From Cymodocea nodosa (taxonomy: Eukaryota > Streptophyta > Magnoliopsida > Alismatales > Cymodoceaceae), in NCBI GenBank assembly GCA_036874045.1, contig CM072339.1, forward strand, positions 2,797,501 to 2,861,500: a stretch of 64,000 nt of DNA, read 5' to 3'. The position numbers were made by a program, and so were the translations under genes. The stretch's first letter is position 1; each line of letters begins with the position of its first letter. Below are positions 30,039 through 64,000 of the stretch, piece by piece. The notes beneath the pieces were generated by a model. That model was given only the letters and a program-made list of their open reading frames with translations. It was not told the origin of the DNA and ran no database searches.

Positions 30039-31432
30039 TCACATGGAATACATAATTCTTTCACGCATTATATCAGCTACTACTTTCCTTTGTTCCATGC
30101 TCAAATTAACAAAACAATGTACATTATCTTCTTCAACATTGTTAACAAATTCTTCATTTAATACAACATTTTCTTCCCGCAATTCATCTGCCAGATCTTG
30201 TAATAAGTCTTCTCGATCTGCTCTTCTAATGAAATTATGGACAAGAAAACATGCTAAAACAATTTTAACTTGTGTTTCAAATGGATATGGCATGTAACCT
30301 CGTAAAATTGTAAATCGATGCTTGATCACTCCAAATGTACATTCTATAACATTTCTCAATTGAGAATGTCTATAATTGAAATTCTCTACTGCGTTACTTG
30401 GAACTCGATTTTGATCATATTCTGATAAATGATATCGTACACCTCGAAATAGAGAAATAAATTCTGGACGATTTAGGAATCCTGCATCTACCAAATAATA
30501 TTTACCTGCACAATATACATAACATTTAGCACTTTCAATATTATGATTTATATAAACAAATAATTTGAATGACAATAGTGTTGTCATACTAGGTGGTACT
30601 TCAAGCCTATGCGGTCGAGAAGTCGCATCTTGTAAAATCCTTGCATCTGCAGTTGATCCTTCCCAACCAGCAAGTACATACGTAATTTCCATGTCAAAAT
30701 TACAAGCTACCAATACATTTTGTGTTAATTCTCCTTTTCTATTCCTGTATTTAGCAGTTTCTTATCCATAAATTGTGGCATTGACATGTGTACCATCGAT
30801 AGCGCCAATGCAATCCTATATTGAGAACATGCAAAAAATGTATTTTTAAACATCTATGCAAAATACATTCAATAAAATAGAAGAATATAATAATATAATT
30901 CACATTTTACCTTAAAATATGTGTAGACATTTGGATCATTACGAATTCGGTTTGACGTTGAAGATGAAGGTTTTGCTATAAGTATATCATGTAATCTTAT
31001 TATAGCATTGACAACCTCATTGAAATATGTGCTAATCGTCCAAGCAGATCTCCGAAAACGCTCAGTAGTTACTCCATATCGTTGGTTCTGACCAACTGTA
31101 ACAAGAAAAATTGCTAATTTCTCTTCTACACTTATATCTCGGCTATCTTGTATAACTTTTTCTCTTTTAAGCAACTCACAAAATTCCATAAAAACATATT
31201 GACTCATGCGATATATTTTTCGACAGTTATATGATTGGTGAGGTATTGATAAATCTAATAATGTCCTAATATATCGTTCTCCCTCCCTACTATATATTCG
31301 TTCAGTAGAATTCCTTGTAATATGTGTAATAATATGTGCAACTCCTTCACACGCTTGAGTAATTATGTTGCATATTTGCCTTTGTCTTTACCTCTGTAAT
31401 CGTCGTTGAGAACTTTCATCATAGTTGTCCAT
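30039..31432 (-). pseudogene. PIF/Harbinger DDE transposase with two nonsense codons
   Basis: Two exons, 30911-31432 and 30039-30815, join in phase 0 through an 95-bp intron and would give 432 residues. The catalytic triad is visible: first Asp in DCIGAIDGTHVNA, second in YYLVDAGF, and Glu in RNVIECTFGVIKHRF, with AGWEGSTADARIL between. Two in-frame TAA stops break it, at 31388-31390 (codon 15) and 30762-30764 just after AIDGTHVNATIYG. At both places the context suggests an original CAA, which is inference. Apart from these the frame is open over its whole length, so the copy is fairly young. The family makes the nuclease that cuts at TTA/TAA targets and needs the Myb-like partner. Confidence 0.88.
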
Positions 31433-54961: not shown

Positions 54962-57640
54962 TAGAAAATGATGGAAAATTTTTTTTTGACGTTTTTCGTC
55001 ATTTTATAGGTTCACGAGTACCTTTGTAATTACATAAATTTTATTATTACGTACGTGATTATAAATATATGAAAAAGAAATTTACTTAGATTAAACAAAC
55101 ATTAATGGTCTCAACCGGCTTCCACTTGGTTTCATTTTAATCAGAGATATAAAAGCTTGCATGGGTAGCTTGAGCCCGCAAGGTACGCACGCACCCTCTA
55201 TTATATAAATTTTCTATAACTACACCTATTAATTATCCAGATCTAACATTATTGTCTTTGTTATATGTAAGTTGCACCTAAAAGCTAATCTGTAATAAGT
55301 ATGAAATATCAAGGACAAAAAAGGTAATTTTTGCATTTATTTATTATGGATTGAATTTTTCCGTCGACCCCCCCCTGCAGGTCTATTTGCAATTGACGAC
55401 CGCTTATTTCATCAAATAGACGAGCAGGGAGGAGAGTCAGCGTGACGAACGACGAAAGGAGGTGACGCAGTCGGCGAATTTTTTCGTAGTTGCGCGGCGA
55501 TCGTCGGCTGTCATGGTTGGTTGCGCAGCACTGAAGTAAGAATAAATAAATAAATAAATAAATAGAGAGAGAGACAGAGGAAAGAAAAATGAGTTATTAA
55601 AGGGGAAATAAGAAAAGTAATAGACTTTTTGTAATTTCCTTGTGTTTAGTAATTCTTTCTTTTCATTTAGTTTAAAATTATTTTATTTGGGAATAATGCA
55701 TGATTATGGATTTTAAATTCATAAATACGTGCATATTAGTGTTGATCATGTTACAGAACTTTTGGAGATTAGTGCACACGATGGATTTTACACCATATAT
55801 CAGGAATAATTGTTATTCGCTGTAGAAGGTTTATTTATTTTGCATGTGATTATTTGACATTAAAAGTAATTGTCGTAGAAAATACATATCATTGTCTACG
55901 TCTAATGTGAAATTTAATACTTATTAAAATGAATAAATGTTTACCTATAAAATTTGACAATAAAAACCTGGTACTATGATATTGTATATAATAGAAACTA
56001 GATGATACTTTTAACTTTGTCTCAATTATTTGAGATATTTGACTCAATCTCAAGGTGATTTGTAATAGTTGGACCTTGTTATAGAAAGTATAATACCTAG
56101 TCATAGTTAAATTGAATAGGGAAATGTATGAGTATATTTGATATTGTAGTCCAAGCTATTATTACAATTTATAGGATTCGTTTTTTATTTTGATAAGATT
56201 GCATATTTTATATTATTGCATTGAATTGATAGTATAACACTTCTTTTTATATGCATGATATATTAATATTTATTTTATTTTGAACTTATGATATATTAAC
56301 TTATTAGATTTTAGTTCACATGTTGTTATTATTCTTTTTTAATATATTCAATAGACACTCAAGGTGAGTGTGAGTAATATAAGATGCATTAGTCACCATT
56401 TTTCTAACTACGATAAATAAATTGTAAATAATAGATTTATAAATATTTAATTTCTTATTATCATACCTCTTAGCAAGTATCAACATTGTAATATTAAATA
56501 TATTTATTTTTTTTACAAGTTAAAATTTTTATTTATGTATATTTTTTTCTCTTTAATATTACAACGATTATCATTTCCTTTTTTGGACGTGACATAATCA
56601 ACACTCACCTCTTGTGATAATCTTCACTTAAGTTGTTACGTCGTGATTACACTAATTTTTCAGCATTTAGTTCAAACTAAATTTAAGCAATTATTTAGAA
56701 AGGTCTCTAACCATGAATGTAACATGAATAAATTTGAATGATGGAAGATATTTCTCAAGTAATTAATTTTAATGATGTAAAATTTAACGATAAACTTGAA
56801 ATTTGATGTATGCATTAAATTTATTATATATAAGACATAAACAATGAAAAATAAAGTAAGCATAATAAAAGATCAATGAATGAAGATCAAGAGAAAAGGA
56901 AGAAACGTTGGAAGATCAATTGTGCACATTTAAGGGGAGAACTTCAACAAGGGAGATGTAACGTAACACTCTAAGCTTGTAAATAATCTATGAACTTAGC
57001 TTAGTAGGTTATGATGAGGTATTCTTGGGTTATAATTAAGGAGCCAGGCAAAGATTAGTAGATTTGTTAAGGAATTTGTAATGATGAGAGATTGACTTGA
57101 AACAACACCAAATTAATGGAAATCAAACAAGAGGCTTGAGGGGTGATTGTATTAATTAATCTAGATTTTTATTGAGCAATTCTCAATTTATCATGCAATT
57201 CTCATATCTTCACATATCTTAAATTGCTACAACTTCAATCGGTGTTTTTACCATTTAACCCCTCCATCTAATGGAACCAAGCGATCTTAACAGATTAGTT
57301 AATGATAGTGTTCTTTAAATAATTGAGATTACGAAAATCTCTCCTTCTCTCTATTTTCTCTTTAATTTGTGACATGGATCCTTGCTTAAACGTGGATTTT
57401 TTTCATTATTTTTTAAATACATTTATTTTATTATTATGTATTTAAGGACATCTCAAGAATTGTCCTGTAATTTTGCACCTTACACGCTCATTTGGAAGGA
57501 TATTCATCTATCTCATATCTATACATCAAAATACACAAGGAATTTCAAATTTAAATGATTTTGACTATTTATAAAATAAATTACAAAATTTTGTTATATA
57601 ATCAAATTTACAAATAAAATTTGTCAACAAATGTAAAGAA
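54962..57640. other. AT-rich intergenic stretch
   Basis: A GC-rich patch at about 55370-55510 is followed by (AATA)n at 55530-55565. No gene is recognised. Confidence 0.5.
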
Positions 57641-60580
57641 TCTACCACCAGGATTTACAAATTGTGTGTGGAGAGTTTATACTTATATCAAAGTATATTA
57701 AAAAAATTAAACTCATATCTAGAAATGATATGATATTTTTTTATATTTTAGATAATTTAAATTCTTATATACAAACATTTGATGACTAACCTACTTAGGT
57801 ATAGAGATATTTTGGTCATTTCCGCGTGGAGGGCATTTCAAGTTTTTTTCTTTTAATATCTTGACACTCATGGTTGTTTACTCGTCAGGATATATTTTTC
57901 AAATAGTTTAGACTTATATTTGGAAATACTTTATAATTTTAGATAATTTAAGCTTATATCTATAAGCAATATAATATTTTTTATATTTCAAATAAGTTAA
58001 GTTCTTATTTAGGACCAACATGATATTTTTCCATATTCCAGATAATCTAGGCTATTATCTAAGAGCAACATAATATATATTTTTTATATTTTAGATAGTT
58101 TAGCTATTATCTATAAGTACTTTACAACTTTAGCATAAGCAATAGTATTTTGATAATTTTGCTTATTTATAAGAGCAATTTTAGAATCTTCTTGAACAAT
58201 ATATCTTTAGATAGTTTAAACTCCTATTTAGAAGCAATATGATATTTTTTCATATTTCAAATCATTTTAACTCTTATCTAGAAATAACATAATATTTTTT
58301 TATATTTCAGATAGTTTAAGTTCATATCTAGGAGTAATATGATATTTTTTATATTTCAAATAGTTTAGACTATTATTTAAAAGTAATATGTTATTTTAAC
58401 ATAGGTAAGGGTATTTTGGTAATTTCAATTATGTATTAAGGCATTTTAGGATCTTACCCTCAATATTTTGACATTCATATACATTCATGACAAAATATAT
58501 CTTTTAGGTAGTTTAGACTTATATTTAAAAACATTTTGATATTTTAGTATAGGCAATGATATATTGGTAATATTACTCATACGTAAGCACATTTTAAGAT
58601 TTTACCTTTAATATATTGACATTCATATACGTTCATGTTAAAATATATCATTTAAATAGTTTTGGCTCATATCTAGAGTATTTCATAATTTTGACATAGT
58701 AAGGGTATTTTGGTCATTTTTCATATGCACGAGAGTATTTTATGTTTTTTTCCTTGATATTTTGACATTCTATATGTTTTCATGTCAAAATATATTTTTA
58801 GATAGTATAAGCTCTAATCTAAAAGTATTTCATGTTTTAACATAGGTAAAGGTATTTTGAAAATCTTGTCTATGAAAAGACCTTTGGATTTTAATAATGT
58901 AAAAATCAACATGAGGAATCAACTTGTATTTCATAGGTCAAAAAAAATAGATAGTTCAATTAAAGTTGCCAGATAAAAGAAAGAGCTTCAGAAAGCTTAA
59001 AGGTTAATTGTCTAAAAGAAGAACATTTTCAGAAGGTTCAATGAAGTTAAAGAAAATAAACATAAGTCAAAAAGAAGCCATTTGGAATGTTATAGAAGTG
59101 TAATTATCTGAAAGTCAAGTTAATTTTGAAATGTTTCAAAAATAATATACCAGGAGTGAGAAGGGTTGCATGAAGAACTTAAAAGACTCATGTGACTAAT
59201 AGAAATAATAGTTCATTAAGTTACAAGCTTAAAGGCTGAAGAACTTATTGAGTAACAAGCTTAAAGGCTAAAGAACTCATTGAGTTAGCATAACTCAACA
59301 TGTAAATATAGAAGGAACAACTTGTTGAGTTACAAGCTTAAAGGCTAAAGAACTCGTTGAGTTAATATAACTTAATGTGTAAATATAAAAGGAATAATTC
59401 ATTGAGTTATAGGCTTAAAGGTAGTGTAATTCGCTTAGTTAGCACAACTCAATGTATTCATAAAAAGTCAAATAGAAGTCATATATCGAACTCGTTAAGT
59501 TAACAAAAACTCACATGCAGAACTCGTTAAGTTAACGAGTAAAAGGAAAAACAATTCGTTAAGTTAACAAGTAAAAGGGAAAGCAACTTGTTAAGTTAGC
59601 AACAACTTAATGATTAGGGAGAAAATAATGAAAGATTGACATCACGTGCATAACAATGAAATTCATGTGATAAAATTTATTGAGTTAGCATAGCTCAACA
59701 TGTATTTATAGAAGACAAGAAAGAACAACTCATTAAGTTAGAAATAACTTAACGACCTAGAAGAAGATTGGTAGAAAAGCATTTGACAGTATATCAAACG
59801 GTAATTTCCTATTTATAGGGCTATCAAGATCAAAGTATAGTAGAATAATATTGTTGAAAGATAATATAATTGTTGGAATTACAAATATAAATATAACTAG
59901 ATCATTTTATAAGTACACGGAGATCAATATATATACAGTGAGAGCTATTGAGAAAAATTAGAATTCATACAAACACATTTAGTCAAAGTGCAAGAATCTC
60001 TTAAGCTAATACATGTGAAAAAGCCTTTTGTGCCTAATAGAAGAAAAGATTGTTGGTTTGCTAAAGTTTCAACTAAAAAACTTCTCTTAAAGGATTGGTT
60101 AGAGCTAGGACCAAAAAGCTCAAAATTATGATTGATTCTTGCTTCAACCTGAAAGTAAGTGTGTAAGTGAAAGTTAATAGTAAAGCCCAATGTGTATATA
60201 AGGGGTGGACTAGCTGTTAAGGGTAAACCATTTAAAATTCTTTATGTGTTTTAATTGTGAAGTTTGTCTACATTATCATAGTTTAACTCATTAGTATATT
60301 ACTTACTTAGTTAAGCTTCAAATAGTAAAAAGTCATTTAGAAATAATATAGTCTAAAATTCTTAAAATTACCATTCACCTCCTCTCTCGTAAGTTATTTA
60401 GTCTCAATAGTCTATGAATAAAGGTGATTTATATTTTACAAATGATATTTTTACATTTGTATATATTGATGTCAAAATATATTTTAAATAGTTTAAACTT
60501 GTGTCAAGGACAATTTAATATTTCAAATAGTTTATATTTATATTTAGAAATATTTTACATTTTAGAGAGTGATATGATTT
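57640..60580. repeat. Degenerate AT-rich repeat region
   Basis: A unit of roughly 55-60 bp built on TTTCAAATAGTTTAGACTTA and TATCTAGAAGCAATATGATA recurs many times in 57700-58400. It is embedded in larger units that add AGGTAAGGGTATTTTGGTAA and TATTTTGACATTCATATAC. The same words return at 60430-60570, on the far side of another repeat type. Copies are strongly diverged, so boundaries are loose. Confidence 0.65.
59200..59780. repeat. GAGTTA-rich repeats
   Basis: Repeated blocks such as TTACAAGCTTAAAGGCTAAAG are followed by CTCGTTGAGTTAGCATAACT and CAACATGTAAATATAGAAGG. TTGAGTTA-GCA-TAACTCAA is itself a short palindrome that appears in several copies. Confidence 0.75.
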
Positions 60581-60599
60581 ACACCTAAAATACTTAAAT

Positions 60600-62175
60600 T
60601 TCTACTTTGGCTATTTGTATTTTAAATCCAAAGTATTATGATTTTATCTTAGATATTTGTATTTTATATCTAAAATAGTTTCAAATTTTTTATTTTAGAT
60701 ATTTTTATTTCATATCCAAAATATTTTAAATTTTATCTTATTATCTTGGATATTTATACTTTACATCGAAAATATTTTAATTTTTAATTTTTACATTTCA
60801 TACCTAAAATATTCTTGAATTTTAGATACTTAATATTTCATATCTAAAATATTTTTTATTTTAAATATTTATATTTTATCTGAAATATGTTATTTTTTAT
60901 TTTAGATATTTATATTTCATATCTAAAATGCTTTAATTTTATTATTGATATTTATGTTTCATATTCATAATATTTTAATTTCCACTTTAAATATTTATAT
61001 GTCATAACCAAAGAACTTTAATTTTTTATACATTATTTTAGATATTTATACATTATATCTAAAATATTTTTATCTTGGATATTTATGTTTCATATTCAAA
61101 ATATTTTAATTTCTATTCTACATATTTATATATCATATCCAAATTACTTTAACTTTTCTTTTCATTTTAGATATTTGTATTTTATATCTAAAATATTTTA
61201 ATTTTATTTTAGATATTTTATATCTAAAATGTTTTAATTTTTATCATAGTTTATTTTAAATATCTATATTTCATGTACAAAAAATTTTAACTTTGGATAT
61301 TTATATGTCATATCCAAAGTACTTTGATCGTTATTTTAGATATTTATATTTTATATCTAAAATATTTTGATTTTTATCTCAGATATTTGTATTTTATATT
61401 TAAAACATTTTGATTTTTTTTTGATATTTATGTTTTATATCTAAAATATTTTAATTTTAGATATTTATGTTTCATATCTAAAATATTTTAATTATTACTT
61501 TAAATACTTATATTTTATATCTAAAATATTTTCTAATTTTTATTTTAGATATTTATATTTTATGTCTAAAATATATTAAGTTTTTTTAGATGTTTATATT
61601 TCATAATTAAAATGTTTTAAATTTTTATTTTTGATATTTACATTTTATATCTAAAATGTCTTAATTTTATTTTGGATATTTGTATTTCATATCCAAAAAA
61701 TTCTTGAATTTTAGACATTTATCTTTTATATCTAATATATATATATAATTTTATTTTAGGTGTTTATATTTTATCTCTAAAATGTTTTAAATTTATTTTA
61801 GATATTGATACTTCATATCTAAAATATTTTAATTTAAAATTTAGATATTTATTTGTCACATCCAATATACTTTGATTGTTGTTTTAGATATTTATATGTT
61901 ATATCTAAAATATTTTTATTTTGGATGTTTTTGTCTTATATCCAAAATATTTCAATTTTAGATATTTATATTTCATACCTAAAATAATTTAACTTTAATT
62001 TTGGATATATGTCGTATCTAAAATATTTAACTTTTTATTTTAGATATTTATATGTTATATCTAAAATAATTTAATTTTAGATTTATATTCTAAGATATTT
62101 TCATTTTTAAGCATGTTAGATACTTATCTTGAAAATATTCCATTTCATTTTGGATACTCATATTTTATATCCAAT
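60600..62175. repeat. Hairpin-unit satellite-like array, about 43 bp x about 35
   Basis: The core of each unit is TTTTAGATAT, a spacer of about 9 bases, then ATATCTAAAA, so each unit is an inverted repeat with 10-bp arms. Units are separated by AT spacers such as ATTTTAATTTTTA. The copy at 61334-61362 is perfect. Other copies carry matched changes in both arms, for example CTTTGGATAT with ATATCCAAAG at 61291-61319. Spacing varies between about 35 and 50 bp. There is no coding capacity. Confidence 0.9.
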
Positions 62176-62179
62176 ATAT

Positions 62180-64000
62180 ATATATATATTTCTTTTTTTT
62201 CCCTCTCCTTTCCTTTTCGTTGCTGGACTGCTGAAAGTCCGATCAAGTTCACAATTTTTCAATTTTTGCAGTCCAGCCCTCTCGTCTCAAAACCAGGCCC
62301 AATTTGAATTTTTTTTTTTTTTTGAATGATGGGCCACCTCAATATCAGTATAGTCCGGTCCACCATCCTTTTTATCAATTTTCCACGGTCCTTTTGTTAA
62401 TGTCGGTAGAGCTCTACCATCTTCGATGATCACTGATCTTCGGCAATCGTTGACTGGTACTGCAATACCCATTCGCCTTCCCTTCTGATTGTGTTAGATG
62501 ACTCCAGTGGTCAAAGCCCACTCTTCACTTACTACTCGATAATTGGACGAAGCCACCTGAATAGATAGAAAGAGGAGGGGAGAACCATGAACTGAGGACG
62601 CGCAAAGCCGACGACGATGTCGTTATTTATTTATTTAAATTTTACAGCCAACAATCCTTAGGTACACTTGTCTGTGTTTATATTGCAGGTTTATAATTAA
62701 GATTTTTTTATTAATATTAATATACAGTTCCTCGGGAAGTGCGCTGGAAGGCCAGCGGGGTTTGGGTCCGCATGAGAGGGACCTGGAAGAAGAACAACAC
62801 CTTTGACAGGCACACCCCAACGGACATTCTTTTTATTCAACGACGATTTAATTAATTAAATTAACGAAATTCATAATTTCCACAGATATAAAATTTATCC
62901 TCATTAAAATAATTTAAAAATATACATATTTTTTTTACAAAGAACAGCAACAATATCAACCACCTAATCAATCATATGAATCTTTTGTTGACAGATTTAA
63001 TCGGTTATTTATCTAATATTATTCGAACATGACGTCAACTAGGATGTCGCCTTCAATTTTTAACTTTAACGAGAAATAGTATTGCAGTTGTACCTTAGGA
63101 GATTAATTTGAGTAAAAAAAAAGTTAGAGTTTAAGAGTTATATTTATTTTACAGAATAGCGCAGTGTGTATATTTTTAATTTTATCCTTGCTTTACTTTT
63201 TAAAAATGTAGTGTAATTAATATTTGTGCTAATATTTGAGTATAGTAAATGATTTTATAGGATTCCTTAAAAATTACTATTTTGAATTTTATACGTAGAA
63301 AATATTTTCCAATACTTAGAAAGATAAATCTCTAAATTAAATAAATAATATTTTAAATCGACAACAACTGTTCAAACATATGAACTCAAAGGACATATAC
63401 TGGGCTTCGATCGATAATTATAAATATAGGGGTGATTTAGTAATTTATCCACTGGAAGCTGTCGAGACTTTATTGTTGTAAATAAATAAAAAGCTTGTTG
63501 AAGCATGTAATTTTAGGATGCTTGGAAACATTTTTTATTATGCCAACTTATTTTAAAATAAGTTATAATTGAATAAGTCTTCTTAAATGCAATTAAAATA
63601 ATTAAGGACTTTTATGATTTGTTTTATAGCTTATTCAATAACCTATACATTCCCAGATTGTGTATTTAAAAAAGCCACATTTTCAAATAAATAAATATTC
63701 GAAGATAAATGATTTTTTTGTTGTCACCACTGGTCGCATGAAAATAATGTTACCAGGAGATAAACACATACATGAATGATCGCCTATTAATTTATACGAA
63801 CAGATCGATCAATATTATAAGTAAACGACGTCGAGGATGAAATCTTAATGGAGTAAATTGAAATCGAATGCTCTTATAATTTAACTTTACATCGTAATGA
63901 ATAATAATAATATTTTTTTTATGATTTTAATTTAATACCTAATTTTTGTTTGAAATTTTACTTTTTTATTCGTTAAATTTGCGTATCATGACATACGACA
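62180..64000. other. AT-rich right flank
   Basis: A mixed-composition patch at 62215-62560 and another at 62730-62825 contain open frames. In the second, + strand reading after TATACAG gives VPREVRWKASGVWVRMRGTW, which looks protein-like, but I cannot place it in a family. No complete gene is seen. Confidence 0.4.

Follow-up and report, generated by a model that had tools for sequence, protein, structure and literature searches.

Covarying hairpin arms in a minisatellite of Cymodocea nodosa, carried by an element most likely of LTR type, are mostly inherited

The two arms of the hairpin units in a tandem array of Cymodocea nodosa change together, and this co-change is mostly inherited from a few old compensated unit types. 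We consider it probable, with good confidence, that the array is an internal minisatellite of an old LTR-type element without recognized genes, and that its double changes mainly represent such inherited types. The array lies in the window, which is the whole 64,000-nucleotide stretch of DNA that was analyzed. The original prediction had explained the joint changes by repair or copying templated by the folded strand or by selection for the fold. Our results bear out the covariation on which that proposal was built, but do not support ongoing templated repair or present selection for the fold as its source.

The hairpin monomer is 43 bp long and consists of a 10-bp arm, a 9-base loop, a second 10-bp arm, and a 14-bp spacer, the arms being TTTTAGATAT (5') and ATATCTAAAA (3'). 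The array predicted at 60600..62175 is real, as both the alignment and TRF (period 43) indicate; its left limit in Table 1 is the start point set for wrap-around alignment. Double changes had been predicted at 61291, 61670, 61919, and 62148 and were found at each, with more at 60605, 60985, and 61073. The arms of the unit at 61291 are CTTTGGATAT/ATATCCAAAG, while the unit at 61919 has an additional G/T pair at pair 8 and the unit at 62148 has mismatches at pairs 1 and 9 beside its pair-4 compensation. Single hairpins (n=6) folded with z = -1.9 to -4.2 relative to shuffles.

Table 1. Positions within the window of the host element, its parts, and the units with compensated changes
Feature	Position	Strand	Basis
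Left target-site duplication, ATCCT	57378..57382	.	
Whole element, 5271 bp, TG...CA, GC 23%	57383..62653	+	Termini and duplication
Left terminal domain common to other copies	57435..57617	+	nhmmer E=1.1e-8, left-end profile
49/50-bp tandem repeats, left part of element	57941..58397	+	TRF
Probable nested insertion with ends TG...TA, flanked by direct repeat GTCTA	58873..60409	+	Sequence only
Array of 43-bp hairpin units	60561..62196	+	40 alignment rows, ending in a 4-base stub
Unit, compensated changes at pairs 0 and 4	60605..60633	+	Array alignment
Unit, compensated change at pair 0	60985..61013	+	Array alignment
Unit, compensated change at pair 4	61073..61101	+	Array alignment
Unit, compensated changes at pairs 0 and 4	61291..61319	+	Alignment, single-hairpin fold
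Unit, compensated change at pair 4	61670..61698	+	Alignment, fold
Unit, compensated change at pair 4	61919..61947	+	Alignment, fold
Unit, compensated change at pair 4	62148..62176	+	Alignment, fold
Right part of element, end GCCAACA then duplication	62197..62653	+	Placed by duplication
Right target-site duplication, ATCCT	62654..62658	.	

A search of the 375-Mb, 28-contig genome for further arrays, which the original prediction had proposed, returned at least 86 matches to the array query in dozens of places among the best 40 of 749 candidates. Twenty-four further loci were fetched, and their units were aligned with the window array. Locus L027 is a segmental copy of L025 and was left out of most counts, but it was kept in the hairpin-to-hairpin co-change and wobble sums. 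The within-array shuffles and the conservation counts used 953 units with at least 29/43 identity. The partner-slide, lineage, nearest-context, and mixture-model counts used 696 units of 1,414 rows from 24 arrays, selected first for readable arms (1,185 rows) and then for at most six arm differences. Two local features of the copies were also observed. In L012, units 42-49 and 50-57 form an eight-unit duplication with 0.991 identity, the closest repeat block found. Within C2:8736736-9189999, identical hairpin sequence recurs at a spacing of mostly 19 to 39 kb, with one 11-kb gap and one 91-kb gap among the matches listed, which suggests a large-scale tandem repeat.

Transitions at both true partners were observed 195 times versus 65.4 expected in the 696 units, with the arms read directly from the sequence, and partners slid by 1 to 3 gave 0.73 to 1.09 times the expected number. 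The arms co-vary beyond independence, as had been predicted, and among the slides tested the true partners alone do so; the contrary outcome, in which doubles would be no commoner than single-arm rates predict, was not what we found. Strong co-change is confined to four of the ten pairs: pair 0 (46 observed versus 10.2 expected), pair 1 (54 versus 22.2), pair 4 (40 versus 11.3), and pair 9 (33 versus 6.7). Shuffles within arrays matched the observed co-change in 0/500 trials for pairs 0, 4, and 9 and in 2/500 for pair 1, with weak hints at pair 2 (18/500), pair 5 (13/500), and pair 7 (21/500). Pairs 2, 3, 5, and 6 were at chance level in the 696 units, and pairs 7 and 8 were marginal (6 versus 2.3 and 5 versus 2.0 expected). 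The window array by itself (L001, 43 units kept of 48 rows) contains 11 compensated doubles, 6 other doubles, and 75 single-arm changes, with a significant excess at two pairs only: pair 4, where 6 doubles are compensated and 2 are of other kinds (p=1e-4), and pair 0, which has 3 compensated doubles (p=0.01). Across the genome, when all other arm bases were kept constant, pair 4 was A-T in 329 hairpins, G-C in 8, and changed in a single arm in 37 (obtained by subtracting the rest from 374); the 8 doubles compare with about 1.9 expected if singles split evenly (p=1.7e-4), and the 329 A-T hairpins are non-independent, given that near-identical copies at C2 8.7-9.2 Mb are included.

The compensated changes fall into two lineages, C1-G27 and C9-G19 in lineage 1 and C0-G28 and G4-C24 in lineage 2. 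In the first of two groups defined by right flank only (6 arrays, 149 units), doubles were in excess at pair 1 (43 observed versus 22.6 expected) and pair 9 (20 versus 5.6), with none at pair 0 (0.4 expected) or pair 4 (0.1 expected). In the second (7 arrays, 206 units), the excess was at pair 0 (16 versus 4.1) and pair 4 (14 versus 4.0), with 1 versus 2.5 expected at pair 1 and 2 versus 0.6 expected at pair 9 (p=0.11). Nine other arrays, including that of the window, resemble the second group and had 3 doubles at pair 9 versus 0.8 expected (p=0.04). A wider set for lineage 1 comprises eight arrays, six of them placed by right flank, together with L019, assigned by a weak flank match, left domain, and arm pattern, and L023, assigned by a collinear match. 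Given that the placement of L019 and L023 is partly circular, the split was repeated with the flank-defined arrays alone, and it held. Outside lineage 1, pair 9 shows a small excess (5 versus 1.4 expected, p=0.01). In two arrays, L019 and L028, lineage 1 doubles occur in alternating units, whose majority types are TTTTAGATAC/GTATCTAAAA and TCTTAGATAT/ATATCTAAGA. Hairpins two units apart also co-change (230 versus 145 and 212 versus 147 expected, compared to 395 versus 217 for the same hairpin), which is compatible with what dimer amplification would give.

Several observations show that the co-change is mostly inherited through a few old compensated unit types. Identity is equal within and between arrays (0.797/0.792 and 0.756/0.760, 22 of 24 arrays compared), and the best 8-unit blocks are collinear between insertions with identity up to 0.93. 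When the focal arms were masked, the nearest contexts drawn from other arrays carried the same double in 47% of cases for pair 1, 37% for pair 9, 22% for pair 0, and 13% for pair 4, compared to base rates of 8%, 6%, 7%, and 6%, respectively. The doubles at pairs 0 and 4 are linked to loop bases 16 and 18 and to each other, and in the mixture model they form one class found in 17 to 19 arrays, although K=6 gives pair 0 only; BIC favors K=4, where this class is the only compensated one. The ancestry signal at pair 4 is only twice the base rate, and 380 units lacking the linked markers still contain 12 doubles there versus 3.1 expected. Pair 4, at which the original prediction had noted most of its double changes, is therefore the least clear case for inheritance, and some of its doubles may be independent. 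A single founder for all doubles was rejected, given that the data call for four or more compensated changes and that the pair-4 excess persists outside the marked class. The original prediction had named an amplified ancestral variant as the finding that would speak against it, and this is largely what the data indicate, except that at least four ancestral compensated changes, not one, are required.

The closest sister units give no sign of ongoing co-change. In rows with readable arms, 34 pairs with a context identity of at least 0.90 contained 48 single changes, 3 uncompensated doubles, and 0 compensated doubles. At an identity of at least 0.85 (91 pairs) there were 159 single, 12 other double, and 2 compensated changes with 10.1 doubles expected, and at 0.80 or more (235 pairs) there were 457, 37, and 24, respectively, with 39.6 doubles expected; 24, 5, and 0 misaligned pairs were skipped at the three thresholds. 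In the 953 units, the arms match the consensus at 0.856 and 0.834, the loop at 0.838, and the spacer at 0.824, and each arm today seems to drift on its own, at about the rate of loop and spacer. Given the lineage split and the lack of compensated doubles in these sister units, we conclude that the few compensated unit types are of old origin and have been passed down. We propose that a few unit types would have been amplified by unequal exchange or slippage in active master elements, that transposition would have carried the arrays to dozens of places, with each insertion inheriting its array, and that the arms would have drifted independently since the death of the family. Because of amplification and inheritance with insertions, the doubles would mainly be old compensated unit types present in many copies rather than repeated events.

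How the founding types came to be compensated is a separate matter. Doubles at pairs 0, 1, 4, and 9 show an ancestry enrichment of 2 to 6 times the base rate, compared to at most about 1.5 times for single variants, and the mixture-model classes that differ in their arms carry compensated changes, the exception being an indel-rich class that appears at K=6 and K=8. That the arm variants bearing ancestry are all compensated hints at a past pairing constraint or at hairpin-templated copying in the living element, a hint that rests on about four events and on a comparison in which recurrent mutation would dilute the ancestry signal of single variants. We tentatively suggest, as quite possible if somewhat short of probable, that the arms were kept complementary while the family was active, either through selection for the hairpin or through fold-back copying during amplification, so that the variants that spread were mainly self-complementary, and that the dead copies still show four lineage-specific compensated pairs amid otherwise free drift. 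A functional version of this idea, which would supplement rather than replace inheritance from old types, is that the hairpin served the active element as a folded RNA or as a palindromic site for a protein, such as an enhancer array would contain, so that it was mainly units with matched arms that were amplified until the constraint ended with the death of the family. The enrichment of doubles over singles and the compensated classes favor it, but the independent events are few, amplified single variants would be diluted by recurrent mutation, and conservation of the arms today barely exceeds that of loop and spacer. Single transitions were of wobble type in 507 cases and of non-wobble type in 523 (hand sums over ten pairs), so no RNA-strand preference is apparent, and Rfam had no match at gathering score in 56000-64000. 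We regard such a function as possible but doubtful.

The compensated types could instead have come about through plain chance and transition hotspots common to the two arms, which are the same sequence on opposite strands, followed by amplification. All four covarying changes are transitions and position 5 has many single transitions, as hotspots would give, but pair 5 does not covary (8 doubles versus 8.5 expected) despite its 71 and 67 single changes, and it is unlikely by chance that four changes were amplified and every one was compensated. We consider this origin unlikely. Less likely still, and in our judgment very improbable, is that hairpin-templated copying through quasi-palindrome correction by template switching keeps the arms alike to this day. 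Such quasi-palindrome correction is known in yeast (PMC3820800) and would give arms changing alike; the restriction of covariation to true partners and the small within-array shuffle excess at pairs 2, 5, and 7 also agree with it. However, the process described there as active in yeast is not matched by the closest sister units here, which have single-arm changes and no compensated doubles, six pairs are at chance or only marginal, and the strongly covarying pairs are lineage specific.

The inheritance of old types is tied to a mobile element. The array sits inside a TG...CA element with a 5-bp duplication, the borders of which are shown in three copies. Outside the TG...CA ends, the duplication is ATCCT in the window, ATACT in L026 (4,979 bp), and ACTCC in L028 (3,812 bp), and random 5-mers near the same starts recurred behind such an end in 2/2000, 19/2000, and 51/2000 trials, respectively. 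A canonical duplication was found in three of ten loci tested (the window and two of nine others), the other seven having no canonical pair; pairings with non-canonical starts (L016, L023, and L028) were set aside. The window element starts with TGCTTAAACGTGG, similar to the left terminus of other copies, whose left ends are mostly like TGTTGAACGTGGGTTTTTC and whose right ends mostly read ...TCAAC(A) or nearly so. Of the 21 array loci that have long flanks, 9 match the left-end profile (the window, L013, L014, L016, L019, L021, L023, L026, and L028), and for the 12 array loci without a match we infer element membership from the array. Several arrays have similar right flanks, and flank searches of the genome (best 40 of 520 and best 40 of 490 candidates) gave sharp outer limits. 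The right-end profile did not match the window element at 62197..62653. In L036, L037, and L053, the right ends are alike for a few hundred bases past the supposed end (ATTGCCCCTCC or similar), which may represent a longer variant or an internal region. An autonomous satellite without relation to a mobile element would fit the varied surroundings of the arrays and the loci without a left-end match, but the left and right domains common to copies and the target duplications make it hardly tenable.

The element is most likely of LTR type, as solo LTRs or a non-autonomous LTR-derived unit. This assignment rests on the termini and the length of the duplication, given that no primer-binding site, polypurine tract, or junction match was found: visual inspection of 14 left ends (three with a common flank) and 10 right ends showed neither of the first two, and one exact pattern for a tRNA-primed LTR junction had 0 matches. 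No paired LTRs were recognized among the ends inspected, and neither they nor an autonomous gag-pol relative emerged from the flank searches of the best 40 of 520 and 490 candidates. The longest stop-free frame of the window element is 98 codons, and two frames of this element and one of the L026 array had no match in Pfam. A foldback element with long terminal inverted repeats composed of tandem units was rejected, as the main arrays run one way in the strand map; weak opposite-strand blocks occur at a few loci, e.g., L020.

Other repeats accompany the array. The repeats at 57941-58397 also hold AGATA/TATCT inverted pieces, and by eye the left domain of L028 and L036 contains sub-repeats resembling them. 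The segment at 58873-60409 is probably a nested LTR-like insertion, judging from its ends and direct repeats; it is rich in AACTCATTGAGTT-type repeats, and similar sequence was seen by eye to the left of the array in L012. At L023, inverted copies of about 1 kb with 80% identity stand on either side of the array and contain kinase-like frames, one of which Pfam identified as a protein kinase. Elsewhere in the window, a frame at 30042-30761 (-) matches the transposase families DDE_Tnp_4 and Plant_tran in Pfam; like the kinase frame, it agrees with a plant genome.

The system has partial parallels elsewhere. The plant LTR retrotransposons Ogre/Tat and Retand carry tandem-repeat arrays between pol and the 3' LTR (PMC7004042, PMC11963269), and the present arrays are likewise family specific, variable in length, and carried and spread by an LTR-type element. 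Unlike those, the array here lies inside a TG...CA unit in which no genes were recognized, and its monomer is a hairpin. Tetris, a foldback DNA transposon of Drosophila virilis, has repeats in its terminal inverted repeats (PMC4079207) and resembles the present family in its apparent lack of autonomy and in having internal tandem repeats from which satellite-like arrays are seeded; it differs in that the element here has a single main array, long terminal inverted repeats were not seen, and the duplication is 5 bp. Our literature searches found no account of a hairpin monomer in a TG...CA unit with lineage-specific compensated types, which is no proof of absence.

In summary, the record of two lineages separates inherited from recent covariation within a DNA repeat. 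It also carries a caution, in that arm covariation in a tandem array can be mostly ancestral, and counts of paired changes then make the events look more numerous than they were. Should the founder-level pattern recur in other families, it would mean that hairpin structure influenced which of the repeat variants spread.
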